From a bacterium (GTDB lineage Bacteria > SZUA-182 > DTGQ01): 64,000 nucleotides of DNA. How positions within the stretch are numbered: the first letter of the stretch is position 1; the number at the start of each line of letters is the position of its first letter. Location: the NCBI GenBank assembly GCA_023512255.1, contig JAILZY010000009.1, forward strand, positions 6,575 to 70,574, given 5' to 3'. The position numbers and the translations under genes are program-made. The notes under the pieces were generated by a model that searched no databases, was not told the origin of the DNA, and saw nothing but the letters and a program-made list of their open reading frames with translations. Below, in pieces: positions 33,660 through 41,942 of this stretch.

Positions 33660-34163
33660 ATGGCCACAGAAGCTTATCTGGGGCTTGGATCAAATCTCGG
33701 CTCCCGGATTCTAAACTGCTATCGGGCCATCTATCAACTTCATCATTCAGGCTCTGTGGCTTTGGTTGAGCGATCCTCGTTCTATGAAACCGAACCCTAT
33801 GGGTATGAGGAGCAGAACAGGTTCATCAACCTGGTTCTGAAAATCAGAACCGATCTCTCCCCGCAGGCATTGCTCTGCCTGACTCAAAGTGTGGAAAAAA
33901 GCTTGGGCAGGGAGGTAAGTTTCAGGTGGGGGCCAAGGGTTATTGATATTGACCTTCTCCTTTTTGGAGATGAGCAGATAGAGGAAGAAGGTCTGGTTAT
34001 TCCTCATCCTCAGCTGCACCTTCGCCGGTTTGTTCTCTATCCCCTGGCTGAGATCGCCCCAGATCTTAGACATCCAGCGCTTGGTAAAACCATAAGCGAG
34101 CTTCTCCAAACCTGTCCAGACCGAAAGGAGGTTAGAAACCTTGAGCCTAGAGGAAAGCGCTAA
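33660..34163 (+). CDS. folK: 6-hydroxymethyl-7,8-dihydropterin pyrophosphokinase (FolK)
   Basis: Cytoplasmic enzyme of folate synthesis that transfers pyrophosphate from ATP to 6-hydroxymethyldihydropterin. The 167 residues carry the family's AYLGLGSNLGSR start, FYETEPYG, NLVLKIRTDLSPQALL, the metal-binding GPRVIDIDLLLFGDE, and IPHPQLHLRRFVLYPLAEIAP. Its last 50 bases contain a ribosome-binding site and would-be start identical to those of panB, showing that folK and panB once overlapped before a 1 kb insertion separated them. Confidence 0.94.
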   Translation: MATEAYLGLGSNLGSRILNCYRAIYQLHHSGSVALVERSSFYETEPYGYEEQNRFINLVLKIRTDLSPQALLCLTQSVEKSLGREVSFRWGPRVIDIDLLLFGDEQIEEEGLVIPHPQLHLRRFVLYPLAEIAPDLRHPALGKTISELLQTCPDRKEVRNLEPRGKR

Positions 34164-34164
34164 G
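34113..34164 (+). repeat. 52-bp direct repeat, left copy (folK 3' end)
   Basis: Identical at 51 of 52 positions to 35170-35221. It covers the end and TAA stop of folK, an AAAGGAGG site and a TTG start now followed by only a few codons. With the right copy it brackets about 1 kb of inserted DNA. Confidence 0.9.
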
Positions 34165-34268
34165 CGGAGGTAAAGCCACCTTTTGGGGAAGTTTTGCATG
34201 TGCTCTCTCTTGCGATACAGTATAAAATAGTATAGAATCGATAAATAAGAGGAACGAGTAAGGTCGCT

Positions 34269-34871
34269 ATGGATTTGGTATCAAATGGAATTATAATTGT
34301 ACTTAAATATCTTCTCCCTGGTTTTGTATCTGCATGGATTTTTTATGGCCTTACTGCCTGGCAAAAGCCACCTGAATTTGAACGAGTAATTCAAGCTTTT
34401 ATTTTCAACATGTTTGTTCAGGTTCTGGTCATCTTTACTTCCTGGACATTTTTTCTATTTGGCAAATATGTCCATAGTTTTGGCTCTTGGACAGCAAATG
34501 TTTCTTTATTTTGGTCTCTCATAGTTGCAATTCTTTTTGGTTTGGCGGTTTCATATTTTGCTAATAATGATACGATACACGCTTTTTTAAGAAGAAAAAA
34601 TATTACCCAGCAGACATCGTATCCTTCCGAGTGGTTCGGAGCGTTTCGACAGAATAAAACTTACGTTGTCTTGAACCTCAAGGGCGAACGGAGGCTTTAT
34701 GGTTGACCCTTGGAGTGGCCAGCTCAGCCGCATAATGGCTATTTTTCAATTATGGAAGCAGAATGGTTAGATGGAGAAAAAAGAATACCGTTGGAAAATG
34801 TTACCAACATTCTTGTTCCAGCAAGTGAGGTAGTATTTGTTGAATTTGTAGCCTCAAAAGATGATCATTAG
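34269..34871 (+). pseudogene. DUF6338-like membrane protein gene interrupted by one in-frame TGA
   Basis: The first 145 codons encode a protein with three membrane segments (GIIIVLKYLLPGFVSAWIFYGLT; FNMFVQVLVIFTSWTFFLF; VSLFWSLIVAILFGLAVSYF), resembling DUF6338. A TGA stands at 34704-34706. The same frame then stays open for 54 more codons to TAG at 34869 and continues the expected C-terminal domain (EWPAQPHNGYFSIMEAEWL...). A TGG at the stop would give an intact 200-residue protein. Other genes here end in TGA, so the code is standard: this is a nonsense mutation, a read-through site or a sequence error. It sits in the insert between folK and panB with a small gene behind it. Confidence 0.7.
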
Positions 34872-34889
34872 AAGCCTATCTTTTGAGAA

Positions 34890-35054
34890 ATGGATAAGGG
34901 TAAAAAAATGGGCCGTAAAGAACCGCAACCACCGCCTGGTAAACCTATACCATATTCCGATTACGGACGGAAGGAAATTATAAGAGAAGGTATTACCCCC
35001 AAAGCGATGAATATTGTCAAGCCGCCGCCGCCACCGCCACCGCCGAAGCGATAA
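34890..35054 (+). CDS. Small proline-tailed protein (54 aa), partner of the DUF6338-like gene
   Basis: Short ORF starting ATG at 34890 and ending TAA. The product is basic and polar, with GRKEPQPPPGKPIPYSDYG near the start, an EGITPKAMN segment, and a C-terminal run of eight prolines before KR. I do not recognise a family. It starts 18 bases after the TAG of the DUF6338-like gene on the same strand and lies inside the same insert, so the two probably travelled together. The reading frame is clean, which favours a real gene. Confidence 0.55.
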   Translation: MDKGKKMGRKEPQPPPGKPIPYSDYGRKEIIREGITPKAMNIVKPPPPPPPPKR

Positions 35055-35169
35055 GACGGCAAGCTGAGATCAAGGTGGATATAAGTCTTTACTTGTAGAC
35101 CTGCCTAGTTGCAGCCAGGCTTGTCTGGTGCAGAGCTAGGCAGATAGGAAGTTCATCCACAATCACATC

Positions 35170-35221
35170 TGTCCCGACCGAAAGGAGGTTAGAAACCTTG
35201 AGCCTAGAGGAAAGCGCTAAG
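35170..35221 (+). repeat. 52-bp direct repeat, right copy (panB 5' end)
   Basis: Right-hand partner of 34113-34164, one mismatch. It carries panB's ribosome-binding site AAAGGAGG (35181-35188) and TTG start. The 135 bases between the small gene and this repeat hold no gene. Confidence 0.9.
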
Positions 35222-36016
35222 GTAACCATCCCCGGCTTAAAGCAGATGAAGCAGGATGGGCGGAAGATCACCATGCTCACCGCCTATGACTATCCGACGG
35301 CTGTCTTGCTGGACAAAGCTGGGATAGATATTCTGCTGGTAGGAGATTCCCTTGGCATGGTGGTGCTTGGTTATGAAAATACTCTGCCTGTAACCATGGA
35401 CGAGATGCTCCATCATACCAAAGCAGTGAAGAGAGGCTGCAAGCGAGGGCTGATTGTGGGTGATATGCCCTTTTTGTCCTTCAATGTGGATAGCACCCAG
35501 ACCATTGAAAATGCAGGCCGATTTATCAAAGAAGGAGGTGCTGAGGCGGTCAAGCTAGAAGGGGCCACAGAGCCTGTCTTGCGAACTATCCGGTGTCTAG
35601 TGGAAGCAGGCATTGCGGTCATGGGGCATATCGGCTTGACCCCGCAACTGGTGCACCAGATGGGCGGGTTCAAGGTTCAAGGAAGAGAAAAGGAGAGCGC
35701 TGAGCTTCTGATCGAGGGAGCTGGAAAACTCGAAGATGCAGGCGCTTTCGCCCTGGTCCTTGAGGGAATCCCGGCAGACCTTGCCCGAATCATTACCCAA
35801 AAGCTCTCTATTCCTACGATAGGTATTGGAGCCGGGCCGCACTGCGACGGTCAGGTCCTGGTTACCCATGATCTGCTTGGGCTCTCAGGTGCTCCAAAGC
35901 CAAAATTCGTCAAGCAGTACGCTTCCCTGCACCCCTTGATTCTATCAGCCCTTAGCTCTTTTCGCCAGGAGGTGCTGGAGGGGAAATTCCCCACCGATGA
36001 GTATAGCTACCACTGA
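35198..36016 (+). CDS. panB: 3-methyl-2-oxobutanoate hydroxymethyltransferase (PanB)
   Basis: First step of pantothenate (coenzyme A) synthesis: adds a hydroxymethyl group from methylene-tetrahydrofolate to ketoisovalerate. The 272 residues match the family; motifs are ITMLTAYDYPTA, LLVGDSLGMVVLGY, PFLSFN, GGAEAVKLEG, VMGHIGLTPQ, ALVLEGIP, PTIGIGAGPHCDGQVLV and HDLLG. I accept the TTG start because AAAGGAGG is 9 bases upstream and no ATG gives a full N-terminus. Folate supply by the neighbouring folK gene fits its cofactor need. Confidence 0.94.
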   Translation: MSLEESAKVTIPGLKQMKQDGRKITMLTAYDYPTAVLLDKAGIDILLVGDSLGMVVLGYENTLPVTMDEMLHHTKAVKRGCKRGLIVGDMPFLSFNVDSTQTIENAGRFIKEGGAEAVKLEGATEPVLRTIRCLVEAGIAVMGHIGLTPQLVHQMGGFKVQGREKESAELLIEGAGKLEDAGAFALVLEGIPADLARIITQKLSIPTIGIGAGPHCDGQVLVTHDLLGLSGAPKPKFVKQYASLHPLILSALSSFRQEVLEGKFPTDEYSYH

Positions 36017-36103
36017 TTAAGTAATTCGCCTCATGTCTATCATTCGTGAACACCGACTATCACTCGTGAACACTGAAATCACAATAATCTTATATCTTCT
36101 ACA

Positions 36104-36198
36104 CTTTTGCAGAAATTTCTTATCGCCTTGAAATCCTTGAAAGTTACCTCTAATAGCAAATCCAGTAAAATCAAGGCGTTGGAGAAAAAGTGCAAAAG
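36104..36198. repeat. 95-bp inverted-repeat element
   Basis: Outer arms CTTTTGCA/TGCAAAAG and inner arms CGCCTTGA/TCAAGGCG lie at matching distances, giving imperfect 28-base arms at 36104-36131 and 36171-36198. Part of the inner sequence, GCCTTGAAATCCTTGAAAGT, recurs near 57546, so it belongs to a dispersed repeat. Confidence 0.6.
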
Positions 36199-36214
36199 CA
36201 TAAATATCTTGATT

Positions 36215-36356
36215 CGCTTTATATATCAGATACCATAAACCCTATATCAGAACAACCATAAAATATCAGAACAACCATAAATCCTCGAAGGGGCTTAGAA
36301 GGGGCTTAGCTCTTATTAGGGTTATGTCTCTCAATGGTAGCTAATAAATAAGAGCG
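36215..36356 (-). mobile_element. MITE-like element, copy 2 (142 bp), with 8-bp target duplication
   Basis: Inverted relative to copy 1 at 19507-19619. Its ends are CGCTTTATATA (36215) and ATAAGAGCG (ending 36356), flanked by a perfect 8-bp direct repeat TCTTGATT (36207-36214 and 36357-36364). It is longer than copy 1 because two inner segments (GGGGCTTAGAA and CAACCATAAA types) are duplicated. Confidence 0.85.
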
Positions 36357-36447
36357 TCTTGATTTCCGCTTTCGCTCAAGAATGATGGCATATTGAAATT
36401 ACTCGACTTTTCACTAGACCTTATCGTAATCACATCACAGACACCGC

Positions 36448-36576
36448 CACTTTTTTCTCATCACGCGTATCCTCATAACGTGTATGAGGAATAGCCATAC
36501 ACGTGGCCTATTGGCTCGTCAAGGCTACACTTTTCCCTCATCACGTGGGACAAGTCAACACTCTTTCCTCATCATG
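36448..36576. repeat. Three degenerate CTCATCACG units
   Basis: CCACTTTTTTCTCATCACG, ACACTTTTCCCTCATCACG and ACACTCTTTCCTCATCATG recur at 36448, 36527 and 36559. The first unit also carries a CATAACGTGTATG dyad. Unit spacing is irregular. No function can be assigned. Confidence 0.5.
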
Positions 36577-36710
36577 TGGAGAGGAATAGATACACTCACC
36601 GAATTTCTCATATACAAATAAATTATAAATTTATCCGATTATGTATATTGTTTTGATATTCATAAGCATATATCTAAACTTTAAACTTTATATCTAATGG
36701 TCTTCTCAGG

Positions 36711-37595: not shown

Positions 37596-40500
37596 ATGAA
37601 GAGATGCTCTTTTTTCATTCGAGAAAGGAAAGGGGTTGCGGTTTTTGGGGCATTGATCCTCTGTTTTCTTTTGGTCTTAGTCTCAAAAAGGATACTTTGC
37701 CCCAAAACCGTGGCTGCTGATGTTCATTTTCAGGATGCGGCCACTCATGCCTGGCCGTGCCAGGGGCATGATTCGGGGCATAGTGGCCAGAGCCAGTTTT
37801 TGGGAAGCCAAACCGATACCTTGAAGTGGAGATGGTCAGCAGGGGGGAAGGTTTACTCATCCCCTGCTGTTGGGGCTGATGGCACAGTCTATATCGGCAG
37901 CGACCGTGGTTGGGTCGTTGCTCTTCGAGTCCGTGATGGGTGTCCCATCTGGAGCTTTGAAACCGCAGGCAGTGTGTATTCATCCCCTGCTCTGGGAGCA
38001 GACGGCACGGTGTATATCGGCAGCCTAGATGGTCGGCTCTATGCCCTGCGAGGCCAGGATGGCAGCTTGAAGTGGAGCTACAGATCTGGTGATGAGATTT
38101 ATGGCTCGCCTGCCATTGGGGCAGATGGCACGGTGTATATCGGCAGCCTAGATGGTCGGCTCTATGCCTTGCGAGGCCAGGATGGCAGCTTGAAGTGGAG
38201 CTATAGAACAGGATATTGGATTTATGGCTCGCCTGCCGTTGGAGCAGACGGCACGGTGTATATTGGCGGCCTCGATGGTCGGCTCTATGCCCTGCGAGGC
38301 CAGGATGGCAGCTTGAAGTGGAGCTATAGAGCTGGGGATGAGATTTATGGCTCGCCTGCCATTGGGGCAGATGGTACAGTATATATTGGCAGCCTCGATG
38401 GTCAGCTCTACGCCTTGCGAGGCCAGGATGGGAGCTTGAAGTGGAGCTACAGAGCTGGGGGCGGCATATCCTCATCACCAGCTATTGGAGCAGATGGCAC
38501 GGTGTATATCGGCAGTCTCGATGGCTATCTCTATGCTTTTGGTTCTCCGGCAGGATTGGGAGCTGATAGCATCTGGCCATGCTGGAGGCTTAATGCTCAG
38601 CATACTGGCCAAAGTCTCCTGGTCGGGCCGAAAACCCCTACCCTGAAATGGAAGTGCCAGATCGGGGGAGAGGTATACTCTTCGCCAATTGTTGCCCTTG
38701 ATGGCACGATCTATATTGGAAGCTACGACTCTAAGATCTATGCCCTCAAACCTGATGGTAGTGGTGTGAAGTGGAGCTATCAAGCTGGGGGGCAGGTGAG
38801 GTCAACGCCTGCCATTGCCAGCGATGGTACCATCTATGCGGCAGCTTTTGATGGCCTGGTTTATGCTCTCAAATCATTGAATGGCAGTCTGAAGTGGAGT
38901 TATCAGACCGGCAACCAGATCTATTCCTCACCATCTGTTGGGCCCGACGGCACGGTCTATATTGCCGGGCTTGACGGCAAGGTTTATGCCCTCAAGCCTG
39001 ATGGGAGCCTGAAGTGGAGCTATAAAGCTGATAGCGGTATCTACTCTTCACCGGCTCTTAGTCAAGAAGGGCTGGTTTATGTCGCCAGCGGTGATGGAAA
39101 GCTCTATGCCCTAAATTCCCAGGATGGCAGACTGGTTTGGAGTTATCAGACCAGAGAGCGGATCTACTCATCACCTGCTCTTGATGCTTATGGCACGCTC
39201 TATATCGGCGGTCTCAACGGCCGTCTTTATGCCCTAAGCAGTGCTGACGGGAGCCTGAGATGGAAGTATCAGACTGGCGGTGCGCTTTACTCCTCACCCG
39301 CGGTCGGTTCTAACGGCAGTGTGTATATTGGCAGCCTCGATGGTCGGATTTATGCTCTTAACGCTCAGGATGGTGGTCTTGTGTGGAGCTATCAGACCGG
39401 CGGAGGAATCTATTCTTCGGCAGCGCTGGCCGCGGATGGAATAATTTATATTGGCAGCCTCGATGGTCGGATTTATGCTCTTAACGCTCAGGATGGCGGT
39501 CTTGTGTGGAGCTATAAGGCCGCAAGCCGCATTGATTCCTCACCAGCTATAGCTGACGGGGGCATAGTTTATGTCGCAGACTTGAGCGGCACAGTTTATG
39601 CCTTCGCTGATCCAGCACTGGATAAGTCGCCTCAACTGAGCTGTCCAGGCCCGATCGTGGTCTTAGCTACTGGTCCTAAAACTAAGGTATATTTCCCCGA
39701 AGCCATAGCTATTGATGATCAGGACCCTAAGCCGCAGATAACTTACGACCATGTCTCTGGGTCTGAATTTCCGGTTGGGACAACTATAGTTAAGGTTACG
39801 GCCAGGGATAATTCGGGTAATGTAAGCCTTTGTTCCTTTCCGGTAACGGTTAAGGATATCGAGCCGCCTAGGATTCTTTGCCCCTCTGATATTGTTGTCT
39901 CAGCCACTGGGCCAAAGACGCGGGTAAATTTTGTGGCTACAGCTTCTGACAATACAGATCAAAGCCCACAGATAGTCTCCGATTATCAGCCAGACTCTGA
40001 GTTTCCCCTTGGAGTTACGAAGGTCAAAGTAATGGCCAAAGACGCCTCGGGTAATTCCAGCACCTGTTATTTTACAGTAACAGTCAAGGATACAACCCCG
40101 CCTCTAATCATCTGCCCATCCGATATGATTGTCTCCGCCGCTGGCCCAAAGACCAGGGTGAATTATTCGGCTACCGCGAGTGATGATATTGATCCTAAGC
40201 CTCAGATACTTTATGATCCAGCCCCTGGCTCAGAGTTTCCCCTTGGCACGACTCAGGTTACGGCTACAGCCAAAGACTCATCAGGCAATTCGACTACCTG
40301 CTCTTTTAAGGTTACTGTCCGCGATAGCACCGCGCCCATAATCAGATGTCCTCAGAGTCTGGTTATTCCGGCTGAGGGCCGCATGACTAGGGTAAGTTAT
40401 ACGGTTACAGCTACGGATAATGTAGACCAGGAGGTGAAAGTTATCTGTGAGCCTGCCTCTGGTTCCGAGTTCACTCTTGGAACACACACAGTTAGGGCAT

Positions 40501-41942
40501 CGGCTATTGATTCGGCTGGAAATTCTACGGACTGCACATTTGAGGTCCTGGTGAAAGACATCGAGCCGCCTATAATCAGGTGTCCGGCCACGGTTGAAGC
40601 TACGGCTTCTGGCTCTCTGACTAAGGTTAATTTTACGGCTACAGCCGAAGATAAAGTTGATCCAAGCCCCCGGCTGATTTACGACCATGTACCGGGGTCA
40701 GAATTTCCTGTTGGCATAACGACGGTCAAGGTTACTGCCATTGACTCGGCAGGCAACTCAAGCATAAGCTACATTACTGTGAATGTAAAAGACCCTGGCG
40801 CTCCTACTCTTATCTGTCCGGCTGATATGATTGTCTCAGCCACTGGGGCAAAGACGAGGGTAGATTTTTCAGCTCAGGCCACAGATGCCACAGACCCTAA
40901 TCCGACCGTAATCTACAACCCAGCTCCCGGCTCAGAATTTCCCCTTGGGACAACATGGGTTACAGTTGTGGCCAAAGACTCATCGGGCAATTCGAGCACC
41001 TGCTCTTTTAAGGTTACGGTGCGGGATAGTGAGCCGCCACGAATCATCTGTCCGGCTGATATGATTGTCTCAGCCACTGGGGCAAAGACTCGGGTAGATT
41101 TTTCAGCTCAGGCCACAGATGCCGCAGACCCAAGACCGCAGATAGTCTACGACCCTGCGCCTGGCTCAGAATTTCCCCTTGGGACAACGAGGGTTACGGT
41201 TGTAGCTACTGATGCTTCGGGCAATAGGGCAACCTGCACCTTTAACGTAGTTGTCCAGGATACTGATTTGCCCTTGGTGGCCCTGACTCTTGGCGAAAAA
41301 CCTCCATATGATACCAGTCAGGGGATGAGAATCTTTTACACAGCCAGCGACATCTGCGATCCTGCCCCCAAGGTCAAGGTGGAACTTTCCAACAACGGCG
41401 ACCCTGCGGTCGATATTACCGCCTCATCACCCATTCTGCTCAGCCTGCAAGAGCTGGCCGGTAAAAATACGGTTACCGTGACCGCAACCGATGCTTGCGG
41501 CAATGTAAGAAAAGAGACAGTGAGTTTTGAGGTGACTCTCAAGCTTATTGGAGATCAGATCGTGGTCAAACCTGAAACCCTGAGAATCTATCCGGGCATA
41601 TTTACTGTCTCTTTGGCCTTCCCACCGCCATACGATGTCTCAACTATCCGGGAGGTAGAAGCCGATGGAGCTCGTTATAAAAAGATCACCTACCAGAGTG
41701 AAAACAAGAAGACAATTTGTGAATTCAATAGATCCGACATCAAGACTCTACCTTTGGATAACCAATTCGAGATTAGAGGCTCCTTTGTTTACAAAGGGAC
41801 AGAATGCACCTTTTTCGGCACTGACACTATTCAGTGGGTGCGGCAGATACCAACTCAGCAGAATGGATGGTTGAGTGGTGGTGGGCGGCGGCCAGTTTTT
41901 GATGGAACTATATGTCATGGGCTGCTGTGTGATGAGTGGTGA
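37596..41942 (+). CDS. Giant secreted PQQ-propeller and HYR-domain repeat protein (1448 aa)
   Basis: Secreted or surface protein. After a signal segment (GVAVFGALILCFLLVLV) come two runs of PQQ-type propeller repeats (SLKWSYRxGxxIYxSPAIGADGTVYIGSLDGRLYALRGQDG pattern in brief form), six units (about 75-325) and eight (about 345-670), each opened by a WPxxxxxxxHTGQS motif. Then seven HYR domains of about 78 residues (about 675-1225) with xxCPxDxxVxATGxKTRVxF and SGSEFPLG-type cores, an Ig-like segment, and a unique end. PQQ-like repeats without enzyme residues usually mediate binding, and HYR domains are adhesive. Neighbouring repeats are close in DNA, showing recent expansion. A GGGGAGAAG site precedes the ATG. 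Confidence 0.9.
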   Translation: MKRCSFFIRERKGVAVFGALILCFLLVLVSKRILCPKTVAADVHFQDAATHAWPCQGHDSGHSGQSQFLGSQTDTLKWRWSAGGKVYSSPAVGADGTVYIGSDRGWVVALRVRDGCPIWSFETAGSVYSSPALGADGTVYIGSLDGRLYALRGQDGSLKWSYRSGDEIYGSPAIGADGTVYIGSLDGRLYALRGQDGSLKWSYRTGYWIYGSPAVGADGTVYIGGLDGRLYALRGQDGSLKWSYRAGDEIYGSPAIGADGTVYIGSLDGQLYALRGQDGSLKWSYRAGGGISSSPAIGADGTVYIGSLDGYLYAFGSPAGLGADSIWPCWRLNAQHTGQSLLVGPKTPTLKWKCQIGGEVYSSPIVALDGTIYIGSYDSKIYALKPDGSGVKWSYQAGGQVRSTPAIASDGTIYAAAFDGLVYALKSLNGSLKWSYQTGNQIYSSPSVGPDGTVYIAGLDGKVYALKPDGSLKWSYKADSGIYSSPALSQEGLVYVASGDGKLYALNSQDGRLVWSYQTRERIYSSPALDAYGTLYIGGLNGRLYALSSADGSLRWKYQTGGALYSSPAVGSNGSVYIGSLDGRIYALNAQDGGLVWSYQTGGGIYSSAALAADGIIYIGSLDGRIYALNAQDGGLVWSYKAASRIDSSPAIADGGIVYVADLSGTVYAFADPALDKSPQLSCPGPIVVLATGPKTKVYFPEAIAIDDQDPKPQITYDHVSGSEFPVGTTIVKVTARDNSGNVSLCSFPVTVKDIEPPRILCPSDIVVSATGPKTRVNFVATASDNTDQSPQIVSDYQPDSEFPLGVTKVKVMAKDASGNSSTCYFTVTVKDTTPPLIICPSDMIVSAAGPKTRVNYSATASDDIDPKPQILYDPAPGSEFPLGTTQVTATAKDSSGNSTTCSFKVTVRDSTAPIIRCPQSLVIPAEGRMTRVSYTVTATDNVDQEVKVICEPASGSEFTLGTHTVRASAIDSAGNSTDCTFEVLVKDIEPPIIRCPATVEATASGSLTKVNFTATAEDKVDPSPRLIYDHVPGSEFPVGITTVKVTAIDSAGNSSISYITVNVKDPGAPTLICPADMIVSATGAKTRVDFSAQATDATDPNPTVIYNPAPGSEFPLGTTWVTVVAKDSSGNSSTCSFKVTVRDSEPPRIICPADMIVSATGAKTRVDFSAQATDAADPRPQIVYDPAPGSEFPLGTTRVTVVATDASGNRATCTFNVVVQDTDLPLVALTLGEKPPYDTSQGMRIFYTASDICDPAPKVKVELSNNGDPAVDITASSPILLSLQELAGKNTVTVTATDACGNVRKETVSFEVTLKLIGDQIVVKPETLRIYPGIFTVSLAFPPPYDVSTIREVEADGARYKKITYQSENKKTICEFNRSDIKTLPLDNQFEIRGSFVYKGTECTFFGTDTIQWVRQIPTQQNGWLSGGGRRPVFDGTICHGLLCDEW

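Follow-up and report, generated by a model that had tools for sequence, protein, structure and literature searches.

An accessory gene pair was inserted at an ancestral overlap of folK and panB, the overlap was duplicated and both host genes survived. The insertion is well supported by the repeat at the junction and by the undivided junctions of related genomes. The pair comprises a DUF6338 gene, interrupted in this copy, and a gene for a short proline-tailed peptide. Judged from its recurrence in other genomes, the combination is a real, widespread two-gene module that has so far been undescribed. The explanation that we consider best for the data taken jointly, and regard as probable, is insertion of the pair at the folK-panB overlap together with a peptide acting on the DUF6338 barrel, the copy in the window being broken. 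The window is the whole 64,000-nucleotide stretch of bacterial DNA that was analysed; for coordinates see Table 1.

Table 1. Features of the folK-panB region in window coordinates.
Feature	Position	Strand	Basis
folK (HPPK), 3' end overlapping the ancestral panB start	33660..34163	+	ORF; Pfam HPPK 1.2e-37
Left copy of the repeat: end of folK plus the fossil ribosome-binding site and TTG start of panB	34107..34164	+	repeat comparison
Inserted 999-bp stretch	34165..35163	+	missing at G002/G003 junctions; composition
DUF6338 gene, interrupted	34269..34871	+	PF19865 44 bits, TGA read as W
In-frame TGA replacing a Trp codon, residue 146	34704..34706	+	alignments; genome search marks 1 TGA
Gene for the proline-tailed partner; 48 aa if started at the second ATG, 54 aa if started at 34890	34908..35054	+	ORF; peptide comparison
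Imperfect palindrome CTGCCTAG...CTAGGCAG, 3' of the pair, just before the right repeat copy	35101..35143	+	possible terminator or relic
Right copy of the repeat: fossil end of folK plus the functional ribosome-binding site and start of panB	35164..35221	+	repeat comparison
panB (ketopantoate hydroxymethyltransferase), TTG start	35198..36016	+	Pfam Pantoate_transf 9.1e-116

The insertion site between folK and panB

The insert is bracketed by a direct repeat of 58 nt with 55/58 identical bases (95%) and a spacing of 1057. Counted from CTGTCC (34112), the two copies match at 51 of 52 bases, in agreement with the original prediction of a 52-bp repeat shared by folK and panB and including the panB ribosome-binding site and start codon. 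The repeat includes the signals for panB translation, namely its ribosome-binding site (GGAGG) and its TTG start. The stop codon of folK (34161-34163) falls within the former coding start of panB, so that the overlap comprises 23 nt (34141-34163), and the left copy of the repeat ends 1 nt past this stop. A 45-mer of the repeat, searched with up to three mismatches in the 3.83-Mb genome, occurs at two sites only. Since it is confined to these sites, the repeat is not a chance similarity. The search for the repeat at unrelated sites, which had been named as a way to refute the insertion, returned only the two junction copies, and additional copies of the insert were likewise not found elsewhere in the genome.

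Two genomes of the same family (G002 and G003) contain aat, folK and panB contiguously, with folK overlapping panB, one junction and no insert. Because both keep the unbroken single-copy overlap, the 1 kb in the window represents a later insertion; the predicted ancestral overlap, later split, is thereby supported. The GC content is 40.9% for the insert and 37.5% for the DUF6338 gene, compared with 49.8% for folK and 53.4% for panB, and the GC3 of the DUF6338 gene is 0.31 against 0.50 and 0.59. The pair was not found in the other searched genomes of the same class.

In G002 and G003 an ORF that reads by eye as panC is located 3' of panB. Unlike in these genomes, no panC-like ORF follows panB in the window (36017-36710), so that the pan operon is probably interrupted on this side of panB too. 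Further along, the window contains a 1448-aa ORF (37596-41942) in which a series of many near-identical repeats gives way to repeats of a second type. The palindrome between the pair and the right repeat copy was compared with shuffled sequences, and its stability was not significantly higher (z -1.76).

Length of the repeat and history of the site

Based on the arrangement of the two host genes we propose the following explanation for the length of the repeat. Before the insertion, the ribosome-binding site of panB would have been located inside folK, with the two genes overlapping by 23 nt. Since folK contains the start and the ribosome-binding site of panB, both genes could be spared only by an insertion that duplicates this stretch. 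Only products in which the overlap and the ribosome-binding site were duplicated would leave both genes functional. Selection, acting as a filter, would then account for a duplication of roughly 55 bp without a dedicated transposase.

Thirty-two other copies of the pair were searched for flanking direct repeats, and none beyond shuffled expectation was observed. As these copies are without a flanking repeat, the long repeat appears to be a property of the target rather than of the pair, and an interpretation as a transposition signature is not supported. According to the original prediction, the long repeat pointed to recombination or to capture of a mobile pair. A link of the repeat to mobility of the pair is not supported by the 32 copies or by the sister species G001, where the junction is duplicated without the pair.

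Tyrosine-recombinase attachment sites at the 3' ends of genes have lengths compatible with a repeat of 52-58 bp. Site-specific capture of an integrase-type element that used the folK 3' end for attachment, the repeats representing attL and attR, would therefore suit the repeat length and would also regenerate the folK 3' end as observed. Nevertheless, we regard this history as very unlikely. The ORF list of the insert is free of integrase and recombinase genes, a third copy of the repeat is absent from the genome, and neither the 32 other copies of the pair nor the duplicated junction of G001 conforms to it. Carriage by phages or viruses was looked for in phage records (two queries) and in viral contigs, with no match in either. 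An empty-site test with joined flanks in Pseudomonas found the two flanks apart in most genomes.

The sister species G001 is without the pair, yet its folK and panB are also apart. They are located on different contigs and each retains one copy of the junction, whereas relics of the insert were not found beside either gene. In this species panB adjoins four tRNA genes, and folK is still located beside aat (L003/L036, L040/L048). Compared over the same 52 bases as the window copies, the two G001 copies share 41/52 with each other, and copies from different species share 39-40/52. Two histories fit these junction data: the junction was duplicated separately in each species, or it was duplicated once in an ancestor and the copies were later homogenised in the window lineage. 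In the latter case the junction would have been duplicated once before the split of the window species and G001, followed by gene conversion of the window copies and relocation of panB in G001. The similar copy boundaries in both species and the ATCTGTCC common to their panB-side copies make this single event a serious contender, although short of probable. A single shared base is weak evidence, however, and the near identity of the window copies, set against their distance from those of G001, makes conversion in the window lineage a necessary assumption. The locus suggests that overlapping genes shape which insertions survive: here an insertion with a duplicated overlap persisted, and in G001 duplication of the same overlap had another outcome.

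The DUF6338 gene and its proline-tailed partner

The first gene of the insert belongs to the DUF6338 family as predicted, with a PF19865 score well above the gathering cut-off (44 bits vs 26.5; profile positions 7-204 of 205, TGA read as W). The prediction overlooked, however, that its reading frame is not intact but stopped at codon 146. The first open part (34269-34706) encodes 145 aa, compared with 200 aa for the read-through frame. At the TGA column, Trp is invariant in an alignment of eight rows and nearly invariant among 26; in both alignments the window sequence, translated with TGA as Trp, is itself included in the Trp count. Because most of the barrel domain described below is lost through the stop at W146, the window copy is probably decaying and non-functional. 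The TGA could also be a sequencing or assembly error. Decoding of the TGA as Trp or Sec, which would leave the gene intact, would be consistent with the clean continuation of the reading frame and with the Trp of the relatives. It is extremely improbable, as the neighbouring housekeeping genes are clean under table 11 and stops are present in other DUF6338 copies too. Sec in particular is unlikely because the aligned relatives do not have Cys at this column. In Pseudomonas, a DUF6338 match was obtained in 39/249 genomes, several of them with stops or frameshifts, and 4/30 DUF6338 loci are cut short or split.

Directly 3' of the DUF6338 gene the window contains a short ORF with a proline-rich tail and a basic end. 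The existence of this ORF agrees with the original prediction, but instead of the 54-residue product a start at the second ATG (34908) is more likely, with AAGGG a few bases upstream. A comparison of 34 such peptides yielded lengths of 35-66 aa, a proline content of 25%, basic ends and a net positive charge in all but one (33/34). According to codon comparisons, the peptide is under purifying selection (median dN/dS 0.35 vs 0.125 for DUF6338). Two regular expressions for the partner motif each matched 14/34 peptides. The first one was too loose (shuffled maximum 12), and the second one (maximum 4) does not match the window peptide. Both were written after viewing the sequences, and hence neither is an independent test.

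Among Pseudomonas loci, DUF6338 is followed by a proline-tailed ORF in 28/29 cases, vs 20/189 control ORF ends, and the motif [AE]P.{1,2}[MI]P is found at 24 of the 29 loci vs 2 of the 189 controls. A short proline-tailed ORF after DUF6338 was also observed in Planctomycetota, Nitrospirae and distant PF19865 members, the control ORF ends being from Pseudomonas only. At some DUF6338 loci (L051, L052, L065) the peptide gene is unrecognisable. A survey for DUF6338 genes followed by short proline-tailed ORFs at varied sites across genomes had been put forward as a check, and it revealed a conserved pair. Tandem series of different proline-tailed ORFs, one of three and one of four, follow DUF6338 at two loci (L157, 2096-2502; L160, 2063-2651, reverse complement). 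In L055, the DUF6338 frame ending at 2298 (reverse complement) has a proline-rich C-terminal extension and there is no separate peptide gene; the protein is apparently a natural fusion of DUF6338 and peptide.

Predicted fold, possible function and known systems

The window protein and the distant member L055 were modelled with AlphaFold (mean pLDDT 77 and 75, respectively). Each model has three long helices and, at the C terminus, a domain of six strands. In a structural comparison of the two models, the 50 best entries were nearly all Sm/LSm proteins, with Z-scores of 9.4 (r.m.s.d. 2.0, 66 aligned) and 9.5 (r.m.s.d. 2.1, 68 aligned); a Z-score near 9 indicates a shared fold and says nothing on function. 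DUF6338 is accordingly predicted to combine three membrane helices with an Sm/LSm-like barrel. A profile search against solved structures with DUF6338 (E up to 1) yielded neither an LSm protein nor any solved relative, and a literature search for membrane-anchored LSm proteins in conflict systems gave nothing relevant. The charges of the loops favour an N-out/C-in topology.

From these models we propose that DUF6338 sits in the inner membrane in N-out/C-in orientation with its barrel in the cytoplasm. The small, basic, proline-tailed peptide would be translated from an overlapping or adjacent cistron, at times in tandem or as a fusion. The membrane-anchored barrel would most likely be the target of the proline tail, and the peptide would probably dock there. 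This predicted barrel and its conserved peptide constitute a directly testable protein-peptide system.

Around the pair, both at the distinct Pseudomonas sites and at other loci, the genes vary and most of them are housekeeping genes. The scanned neighbours include an IF-2 domain, and in G687 and G826 (L115, L116) the pair has an apparent rbfA gene on its 3' side, so that it is probably part of a translation-factor operon at these two loci. On a Paludisphaera plasmid, IetA and IetS are located directly upstream of DUF6338 (L075, 2472-6717), and a relative of IetA is found near L138. These are the only two such neighbours among some 20 larger loci and the plasmid. A search with PADLOC component models resulted in a single match at noise level (E 0.015 over 50 residues). 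The original prediction named the pair as a candidate defence or stress module. The IetAS and IetA neighbours lend this idea weak support, as do the patchy occurrence in Pseudomonas, the varied sites, one with prophage-like neighbours, and the frequent decay of copies. With mostly housekeeping neighbours, IetAS-type neighbours at just two copies and neither protein above noise in PADLOC, an anti-phage or stress function appears doubtful.

The predicted DUF6338 barrel resembles Sm/LSm proteins over most of the domain. It differs from them in being tethered to three membrane helices, and RNA-binding motifs are not evident by eye. MscS-type channels combine three membrane helices with a subsequent Sm-like β-domain in the cytoplasm, an order that is shared by the predicted DUF6338 protein. 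In contrast to these channels, DUF6338 has no C-terminal α/β cage, and no Pfam match to the MscS family was obtained at E up to 1. These features would be combined in a model in which membrane-anchored Sm-like barrels form a ring similar to a cageless MscS, are gated or plugged by small proline-tailed peptides from the cytoplasmic side and belong to a mobile accessory module; we consider such a model rather unlikely.

The IetAS system adjoins DUF6338 on the Paludisphaera plasmid but is absent beside the window pair and most other copies. The module occurs in several phyla, and the literature searched describes neither its fold, its partner nor its function. The Pfam entry PF19865 gives no function and contains neither fold nor partner; the copy in the window is truncated. 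The closest described case is Pseudomonas stutzeri, in which three proline-rich proteins of <50 aa from a predicted operon with DUF6338 were detected by MS (PMC10433244). As in the window, small proline-rich genes lie beside DUF6338. In P. stutzeri, the only species in which the small gene has been detected, the proteins were called non-conserved beyond the species and possibly de novo (PMC10433244). Our comparison, drawn from peptides other than those of P. stutzeri, suggests that rapid divergence of the peptides, and not a de novo origin, lies behind this verdict: in contrast to the reported limitation to one species, the partner is seen here across phyla.
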